Of a stretch of DNA of 64,000 nucleotides, positions 42,835 through 44,482 are shown one piece after another; position 1 is the stretch's first letter, and each line of letters begins with the position of its first letter. Under the pieces are notes generated by a model. It saw nothing but the letters and a program-made list of their open reading frames with translations. It was not told where the DNA came from and did no database searches. Made by a program: the position numbers and the translations under genes. The DNA lies in the NCBI GenBank assembly GCA_026395515.1, contig JAPLYN010000005.1:527210-591209 (forward strand). The letters run 5' to 3'. Source of the stretch: Candidatus Peregrinibacteria bacterium. Lineage in GTDB: Bacteria; Patescibacteriota; Gracilibacteria; UBA1369; LOWO2-01-FULL-3.

Positions 42835-43704
42835 ATGCAAAAAATCATCCCACACCTATGGTTTGATAAAGAAGCCTTAGCAGCTGCAGAATTTTATACT
42901 TCCATTTTCGAAAATTCCAAAATTACCGTCAAAGCAAAAATCAACGATACTCCTTCTGGCGATTGCGACATTGTCAGTTTTCAAATCATGGGTTTTAACT
43001 TCGCAGCTATCAGCGCAGGTCCAATTTTCAAAATCAATCCATCAATATCCTTCAGTTTGAATCTAGAAACTAAAGAAGAAGTACAAGCACTTTGGGACAA
43101 GCTCTCCCCTGGTGGACAAGTTCTTATGGAATTACAAAAATATCCTTTTAGTGAATTCTATGGTTGGCTAAATGATAAATTCGGAGTTTCCTGGCAATTA
43201 ATTGCGCTTGGCGAAAACGCCCATGGCAGACCAAAAATCACTCCAGCACTAATGTTTACACAAGATGTCGCAGGAAAAGCCGAAGAAGCAATAAATTTTT
43301 ATAAATCAATTTTTGAAAATTCTAAGATTGGAGATATTTTTCGCTACCCTGCAAGCCCAGGACCAGATAAGGAAGGGACAATCGCACATTCTACATTTTT
43401 TCTGGAAGGCCAAGAATTTATGGCTCTTGATTCTGCTCAGAGACACGCCTTCACTTTCGACGAAGCAGTTTCGCTAATAATAAATTGCCAAGACCAAAAA
43501 GAGATAGATCATTTCTGGGGCAAACTTTCCGCCTTTCCAGAAGCTGAACAATGCGGCTGGGTAAAAGATAAATACGGCGTCTCGTGGCAAATAATTCCCG
43601 CAAACATGGGAGAACTAATGTCAAAAAATCCTGCCAAAACCACTCCCGTCATGCTCAAAATGAAAAAAATAGATATTGAAGCATTAAGAAAAGCCGGAGA
43701 ATAG
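42835..43704 (+). CDS. Tandem PhnB-like VOC superfamily protein
   Basis: Two repeats: IIPHLWFDKEALAAAEFYTSIFENSKI and ITPALMFTQDVAGKAEEAINFYKSIFENSKI. Confidence 0.92.
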   Translation: MQKIIPHLWFDKEALAAAEFYTSIFENSKITVKAKINDTPSGDCDIVSFQIMGFNFAAISAGPIFKINPSISFSLNLETKEEVQALWDKLSPGGQVLMELQKYPFSEFYGWLNDKFGVSWQLIALGENAHGRPKITPALMFTQDVAGKAEEAINFYKSIFENSKIGDIFRYPASPGPDKEGTIAHSTFFLEGQEFMALDSAQRHAFTFDEAVSLIINCQDQKEIDHFWGKLSAFPEAEQCGWVKDKYGVSWQIIPANMGELMSKNPAKTTPVMLKMKKIDIEALRKAGE

Positions 43705-43713
43705 ATCTTAACT

Positions 43714-43757
43714 ATTTTAGAATTTATTTAACTTTAATTTAAGAAAATTTTAACTTT
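43714..43757. repeat. Four tandem 11-bp units upstream of the ncRNA candidate
   Basis: ATTTTAGAATT|TATTTAACTTT|AATTTAAGAAA|ATTTTAACTTT, then a -10-like TATTATAAC. Confidence 0.9.
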
Positions 43758-43774
43758 GGTTATTATAACTGAAG

Positions 43775-43873
43775 TGTATTTAACATTCCATGGGGGTGGC
43801 AGGTTGCACAACGAGCCTGATAAACTACCCTGTAGGGGTTCAACTCCCCTCACATCCACCGGTGTTAAGTACA
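43775..43873 (+). ncRNA. Structured small RNA with tRNA/tmRNA-like T-arm, not a canonical tRNA
   Basis: 11-bp closing stem TGTATTTAACA/TGTTAAGTACA; GGTGG/CCACC; CAGG/CCTG hairpin; TGTAGGGG-TTCAACT-CCCCT(C)ACA; T-loop TTCAACT fits TTCRANY; terminator follows. Confidence 0.7.
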
Positions 43874-43879
43874 AACATA

Positions 43880-43907
43880 AAGAACCCCAAATCAAAGGGG
43901 TTCTTTA
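43880..43907 (+). terminator. Rho-independent terminator of the ncRNA
   Basis: AAGAACCCC-AAATCAAA-GGGGTTCTT followed by TATTT. Confidence 0.9.
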
Positions 43908-43967
43908 TTTGTGACAGTGCATCGCAAGCCTGATATGCCAATATTATAGCAAAACCACCAATCAAAA

Positions 43968-44046: not shown

Positions 44047-44334
44047 TTATTCTTCGTCTCCGAAACTTCTTCTAGAACCTGAGAAACCTCCTGTTCTTGG
44101 TTTTGGTGGACGAGCCTCGTCTAATTTGAGAGGACGACCATCAATTTCTTTACCTTGTAGAGCTTCTAGAGCTTTTTCAGCTTCTTCGATGCTTGAGAAG
44201 GTAATGAATGCGAAACCTTTTTGTTCTGGTTTGTAGCAATCTACGACAGTGCCGTAAGCGCCAAACTCAGCCATAAGAGTTTCTTTTGTAGTAACGTAAG
44301 CAACGTTACCAACAAAGATCTTTGGATTTGTCAT
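44047..44334 (-). CDS. RRM-domain RNA-binding protein
   Basis: KIFVGNVAYVTTKETLMAEFGAYG...KGFAFITFSSIEEAEKAL; RG-type tail. Confidence 0.95.
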   Translation of the reverse strand: MTNPKIFVGNVAYVTTKETLMAEFGAYGTVVDCYKPEQKGFAFITFSSIEEAEKALEALQGKEIDGRPLKLDEARPPKPRTGGFSGSRRSFGDEE

Positions 44335-44482
44335 ACTTTTTAAAGTAATGAAATAATAATGCACGCTTCTTATCCTTACGTCATTACTTAAGATAATTAA
44401 GATGTGAGTGATAGATACGAGTCAATGCAACGGAACTATAACAGATCTACGAGAAAGCGCAAGATGAAATTGAGCCCGCAAA

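Follow-up and report, generated by a model that had tools for sequence, protein, structure and literature searches.

What is the small structured RNA encoded between two protein genes of this bacterium, and is it a tRNA, a degenerate tmRNA or something else? The window that was analysed, a stretch of 64,000 nucleotides (contig 6: 527210-591209), belongs to a 1.30-Mb genome that is 99.9% complete. Within it, the element is flanked by a glyoxalase-like gene that ends at 43704 and by a minus-strand gene for an RRM-like RNA-binding protein (44047-44364), both named from their protein sequences. A DNA search found the element and its flanks at 85% identity in two sister genomes of the same genus. 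An earlier note had described the locus as a single gene for a compact junction RNA with a T-arm but no anticodon arm. That description left out a second gene, for an antisense RNA, on the minus strand (about 43877-43951), and it did not recognize that the element is multi-copy. Comparison with relatives indicates that the locus is very probably a two-RNA module, in which a tRNA-like RNA is encoded beside its own antisense RNA. The full statement, that an alanyl-tRNA mimic is silenced by this antisense RNA in a toxin-antitoxin-like, RNA-only module, stands at about an even chance.

The forward transcription unit begins with A/T tracts phased at 11 bp (43710-43759, plus strand), which lie 5' of the promoter and recur as the same block in sister copies and paralogs. 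These tracts had been taken for four 11-bp direct repeats; the sole exact repeat found is TTTAACTTT, present twice at a distance of 22 bp. The phased tracts may act in a UP-element-like manner. The proposed -10-like box is real and reads TATAAC (43764-43769, plus strand), within TGnTATAAC in the sister copies. A leader strand (43775-43786) pairs with a trailer strand (43862-43873, both plus) in the closing stem, which exists as proposed but comprises 12 bp including G-U instead of 11 bp. The strong terminator hairpin reported downstream was found at 43877-43908. It has a T-rich tail on the plus strand, is terminator-like on the minus strand as well and would be common to both convergent transcripts.

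The closing stem encloses the tRNA-like RNA of 70 nt, which runs from the acceptor stem through ACCG (43792-43861, plus strand) and is recognized by two covariance models (R1, 85.5 bits; R2, 68.4 bits) and by pair counts. Its acceptor 5' strand, GGGGGTG (43792-43798), carries G3 of a G3:U70 pair and contains one mismatch, G4-A69. The 3' strand, CACATCC, provides U70 and is followed by A73 and CCG (43851-43861); this acceptor-like pairing followed by ACC had already been noticed and is present in the sequence. A mini D-arm, GCA-GGT-TGC (43799-43807), has a covarying 3-bp stem. It is followed by an anticodon-like arm of 6 bp, a bulge, 3 bp and the 7-nt loop CTGATAA (43808-43833), which is the predicted landing site of the antisense RNA. 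All nine pairs of this arm show double changes in relatives, and its lower stem is degraded in the window copy. The T-arm-like hairpin is likewise real (AGGGG-TTCAACT-CCCCT, 43834-43850) and is kept in all members.

By sequence comparison, the cloverleaf fold of the family is well supported. The aligned members form a contiguous four-way structure consisting of a 7-bp acceptor stem, a D-arm, a long arm and a T-arm. The D-arm has 3 bp and a short loop containing GG, and in the 9-bp anticodon-like arm a 3' bulge separates 6 bp from the 3 bp that carry the 7-nt loop. The T-arm contains 5 bp and the loop TTCRANY, the discriminator base is A, and most members end in CCA. The structure lacks an 8-9 linker and usually also a variable loop. 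Six sequences, aligned without structure, are 94.4% paired with 13 pairs showing double changes against 5.2. The alignments of 40 and 72 sequences, which were fitted to a model, gave the same answer, with 93.6% paired and 258 double-change cells against 79.9 in the former, and 94.3% paired and 586 double changes against 177.6 in shuffles and at most 132 in slid controls in the latter, held-out set.

Other folds did not survive this comparison. The hand fold of the earlier note, built on GGTGG/CCACC and CAGG/CCTG helices, lies near the minimum-energy fold of the window copy but is not conserved; pair counts in relatives revealed no both-side changes and broken pairs in these helices, and the fold was rejected on these counts. 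A D-armless tRNA, the first reading considered here, was dropped because the 3-bp D-stem covaries. An H-type pseudoknot (CAGGTT/AGCCTG with GTCCCA/TGGGAC) was rejected as well, with its first helix unconserved and its second helix being the arm itself. The absence of an anticodon arm does not hold for the family, as sister copies carry GTCCCA-AGC-CTGATAA-ACT-A-TGGGAC. The arm was overlooked because 4 of the 24 cloverleaf pairs are broken in the window copy, and the compact junction RNA without it is an artefact of this diverged copy.

The window copy retains the RNA body, G3:U70, the terminator and a well-placed antisense promoter. Its lowest-energy fold differs from the cloverleaf, and this difference and the broken pairs suggest that the copy may be decaying. 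Folded alone, it is close to shuffled sequences (z -1.1; z -5.3 with the terminator); thus, the support for the cloverleaf is comparative rather than thermodynamic. The arm is intact in relatives of the window copy in two other genomes (G002 and G003), and members L051 and L104 have a minimum-energy fold that coincides with the cloverleaf or lies adjacent to it. Intact copies include G003:C6:90123-90192 and, in the window's genome, C4:207566-207635. The window antisense RNA still pairs extensively in computation, with a duplex energy of -37.0 kcal/mol and a cofold energy of -60.0 kcal/mol. This diverged member is either decaying or drifting toward a new specificity.

Neither Rfam at default thresholds nor ARAGORN matched the window copy, and no matching family was found in Rfam 15. 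Relaxed Rfam thresholds gave only weak matches, including a 17-nt tmRNA piece at 10.9 bits and mascRNA-menRNA (RF01684) at 21.4 bits (E 0.044), far under its gathering score of 42.5. The mascRNA-menRNA family shares the reduced cloverleaf with a T-arm but is derived from animal lncRNAs and has no antisense partner. The element resembles tmRNA (ssrA, RF00023) in G3:U70, A73, CCA, the T-arm and predicted alanylation. It differs in its length of 70 nt, its lack of a tag frame and pseudoknots, and its D-stem, closed anticodon-like arm and antisense partner. The genome's own ssrA, for which the earlier note had advised a search, is located at C4:188041-188460 (110.8 bits) and contains a tag frame. 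A reduced tmRNA, one of the identities first proposed, is contradicted by this separate full-length gene and by the D-stem and anticodon-like arm of the element. The other proposal, a tRNA mimic or novel class of non-coding RNA, agrees with the missing Rfam and ARAGORN matches, the strong covariation and the tRNA-Ala/tmRNA-like acceptor, T-arm, G3:U70 and A73. A match to a known family and an absence of covariation, named in advance as outcomes that would speak against it, were both looked for, and neither occurred.

The element shares its acceptor identity (G3:U70/A73), T-loop and cloverleaf with tRNA-Ala. It departs from tRNA-Ala in the missing 8-9 linker, the usual lack of a variable loop, the 3-bp D-arm with a loop of 3-4 nt, the 9-bp bulged arm, the non-Ala loop triplets and C37. 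Neither a score above the RF00005 gathering threshold nor an ARAGORN call was obtained, and the alignments and loop sequences do not show the canonical tRNA set of an 8-9 linker, a D-stem of 3-4 bp with a long D-loop, a 5-bp anticodon stem, a variable loop and a purine at position 37. Decoding tRNAs carry a purine at position 37. Position 37 of the family is C in 72 of 110 loops and the loop triplets vary freely, both of which argue against an odd-shaped decoding tRNA that would reassign or supplement codons under antisense control, as does the broad regular tRNA set of the genome. Despite the cloverleaf and the 7-nt loop with U33, which fit such a role, we consider it improbable.

The acceptor stem points to alanine. 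A G:U pair occupies position 3:70 in 39 of 40 and 70 of 72 distinct rows (109/112 in total), counts that include a mild search bias toward G3:U70 because members with this pair were used to build the models. The two held-out exceptions (L143:1501-1572 and L181:506-575) have C3:G70 with U73, a combination that we take to resemble glycine identity, and both have a strong antisense match. Among 30 canonical tRNAs checked in the host genome, all of which encode CCA, G3:U70 occurs only in the two tRNA-Ala; the tmRNA also has G3:U70. AlaRS recognizes G3:U70 in the acceptor stem, and alanylation is predicted on this basis. From G3:U70 and A73, the tRNA-like RNA is thus a predicted substrate for charging with alanine.

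Four paralogs, detected as sub-threshold tmRNA/tRNA matches, are located in the same genome (C1:41478, C1:75180, C1:116651 and C4:207566), and listed paralogs score 26 and 20 bits against the RF00005 cut-off of 29. R1, built from the six members aligned without structure, matched 28 of the 30 genomes of the GTDB family; the genomes with true members are fewer because some R1 matches were canonical tRNAs, and matches that were 74-77 nt long and scored under about 35 bits were set aside as such. R2, built from 41 members, gave a match at 1e-5 in 80 of 90 genomes of the order, some with only canonical tRNAs, and in scans within Patescibacteria it also reached other classes of the phylum. Two 0.6-Mb genomes of family f77 (G451 and G393) contain 9 and 7 matches, a high density for very small genomes, and two tandem members lie about 300 bp apart in L175 from the same set. 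An odd short tRNA-like sequence in the window's genome (L047, G000:C6:50206-50269; RF00005, 32.6 bits) is outside the family. A literature search, with preprints and most subscription papers outside its reach, found no description of such an RNA family, which is multi-copy in Patescibacteria and apparently undescribed. We rate the kind of module as new within the partial reach of that search and scans confined to Patescibacteria.

The antisense partner is well supported by the arrangement of the flanks. For about nine in ten members, an antisense RNA that matches the loop and the 5' half of the arm by complementarity is encoded nearby. In most members of the window's family, a same-strand copy of this segment lies approximately 40-65 nt past the 3' end, beyond the terminator, and is followed by ATTATAnCA, which reads TGnTATAAT on the minus strand. 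The window contains a copy of AGCCTGATA at 43927-43935 as the antisense segment complementary to the loop and arm 5' half, and an extended -10 promoter, TGCTATAAT, at 43943-43951 on the minus strand. The predicted antisense RNA (43877-43936, minus strand) would carry the complement at its 5' end, prefers its own partner and extends its pairing into the D-arm and the 5' part of the acceptor. Other families encode the complement in tandem downstream (often with TTGACA-like and TATAAT-like promoter elements), divergently upstream or in tandem upstream. Together with the convergent arrangement, four layouts are found, each of which leads to one product, an RNA with a 5' end complementary to the loop. 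That all orientations give this same product argues more strongly than any other observation for a complementarity acting between two RNAs.

These layouts also bear on a reading without any RNA pair, in which a mobile element that inserts into tRNA-like genes left the duplicated arm behind as an att-like scar. The direct-repeat copy downstream in the window's family, the dispersed copies and an empty site in another genome of the genus (G001) would suit it. Other families have an inverted and/or upstream copy, always placed for a promoter to transcribe the complement, and an att site predicts neither feature. A direct-repeat or att duplication was rejected as largely refuted by the four layouts, and we regard it as very improbable.

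Antisense matches are specific to their loci. The own-flank match score has a median of about 13 against a foreign-flank mean of 6.9, and in a separate comparison foreign flanks scored at least 13 in 2 of 930 cases. R2 alone contributed 41 further members, of which 38 show an antisense match scoring at least 9; in three members (L163, L180 and L190), none was detected within 300 nt. In 78 of 98 pairs, a -10 box matches at 5/6 or better (35 perfect; shuffles 25.5). The distance to the first complementary base is 6-7 nt for 50 of these 78 boxes, and 46 have a TG extension. The antisense covers the loop in 98%, the arm 5' half in 94% and the D-arm in 79% of pairs. The median net computed binding is -16.0 kcal/mol for own pairs versus -2.3 kcal/mol for foreign pairs. 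The five pairs of the host genome are computed to be orthogonal, with diagonal values of -13.3, -17.1, -20.2, -10.8 and -8.3 and no other entry below -6.6. In the convergent class, leader/trailer pairing is own-specific, with a helix of at least 7 in 74% of own versus 20% of foreign combinations.

Such strong and specific complementarity would also be expected if the antisense RNA were the effector, base-pairing with mRNAs, and the tRNA-like RNA its sponge. We judge this quite unlikely; it leaves unexplained why G3:U70, the T-loop and the CCA end are conserved, and why the antisense RNA differs in each copy yet always matches its own partner. The loop suits a landing site, with U33 in 102 of 110, R35 in 93 of 110 and a full YUNR match in 67 of 110 members, which is of the U-turn type. 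In hok/Sok and further sense/antisense systems, the YUNR U-turn pattern accelerates pairing (PMC6562991). Type I antitoxin RNAs such as hok/Sok further resemble the present system in the antisense RNA, the U-turn loop as landing site, the convergent genes and the common terminator (PMC6562991), but their target is a toxin mRNA, whereas here it is a structured non-coding tRNA mimic.

By comparison of loci, the module is accessory, and it seems self-contained. In the window, a transketolase gene is found approximately 1.4 kb before the element, and in the empty site of G001 the RRM-like gene directly adjoins the transketolase gene without the element. An integrase/transposase-like reading frame is situated beside the RRM-like gene at this empty site (L193, G001:C105). 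All-against-all comparison of flanking proteins at the compared loci identified no conserved protein partner. A phage origin was rejected: the single viral pattern match, L150 (IMGVR_UViG_3300044961_000421), is an ordinary phage tRNA array with 18 tRNA genes, two of which, both tRNA-Leu, share GGCAGGTTGC by chance.

The accessory nature weighs on the main rival, that the charged mimic has a physiological job as a regulated alanine donor or translation factor, with the antisense RNA setting its dose and no toxin involved. Candidate jobs include ribosome rescue like a message-less tmRNA, alanine tailing and alanine transfer to the wall or lipid. G3:U70, A73 and the T-arm are the same as in the genome's tRNA-Ala and tmRNA, and the wide distribution in the order is consistent with such a function. 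Several orthogonal copies per genome, the empty site in a sister species and the layout freedom are unlike a housekeeping factor, and no enzyme gene is linked. On balance, this rival appears unlikely.

A toxin-antitoxin-like (type VIII-like) reading of the RNA-only module is given slightly less than an even chance. It is based on the private antisense, the several copies per genome, the gain or loss and the layout freedom, because these resemble RNA-antitoxin loci. Sequence comparison provides the fold, the identity pair, the antisense complementarity and promoter, the computed specificity and the accessory, multi-copy nature. In the proposed mechanism, both RNAs would be made. RNA 1, the cloverleaf tRNA mimic of about 70 nt, would undergo tRNA-type maturation and receive alanine. 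RNA 2 would be transcribed as a short antisense RNA from a promoter of its own. Its first bases would pair with the 7-nt U-turn loop of the long arm, and extension through the arm 5' half and usually the D-arm would unfold the cloverleaf and silence RNA 1. Free RNA 1 would be harmful by disturbing translation, as a mischarged adaptor or as a drain on AlaRS, EF-Tu or ribosomes. Against this proposal, some members have no detectable antisense, the window copy is possibly decaying, and in the convergent class the pairing of leader with trailer might delay maturation by RNase P.

In type VIII toxin-antitoxin loci, both partners are RNAs and can be encoded on either strand (PMC10767807). The present loci resemble SdsR-RyeA and CreTA (PMC10767807) in having two RNAs, one of which is presumed to neutralize the other, and by sequence both partners are encoded close together. 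The known toxic RNAs are not tRNA-shaped, however, and toxicity here is presumptive. CreA works via CRISPR effectors and not as an antisense RNA. CreTA has a CRISPR-repeat-like CreA beside cas genes; at the loci compared here, no conserved neighbour was found.

Each pair has the appearance of a dedicated RNA-RNA switch, perhaps an RNA-only toxin with its antidote. We tentatively propose, with somewhat less than even confidence, a new class of RNA-only modules across Patescibacteria, in which alanine-identity (rarely glycine-type) tRNA mimics are silenced by dedicated orthogonal antisense RNAs and act as toxin-antitoxin, phage-defence or dormancy switches. If so, mischarged tRNA-like molecules would be fed into translation once the antisense is lost. 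This combination of tRNA mimicry and antisense control was not found described, and it is widespread in Patescibacteria, small-genome bacteria that are mostly uncultured and about whose regulation little is known. That genomes carry several copies suggests strong selection or self-maintenance. G3:U70 alanylation, the predicted antisense start site and the orthogonal pairs are directly testable claims. Below-cut-off tRNA-like matches in these genomes may belong to a distinct RNA family and not be tRNA pseudogenes. In the downstream flanks of five members (L106, L080, L093, L095 and L092), the antisense region also copies the acceptor 3' end (e.g. ACGGCTCCACCA), past a hairpin. By analogy with the double contact of the T-box, the antisense RNA of this subgroup may grip both the loop and the CCA end.
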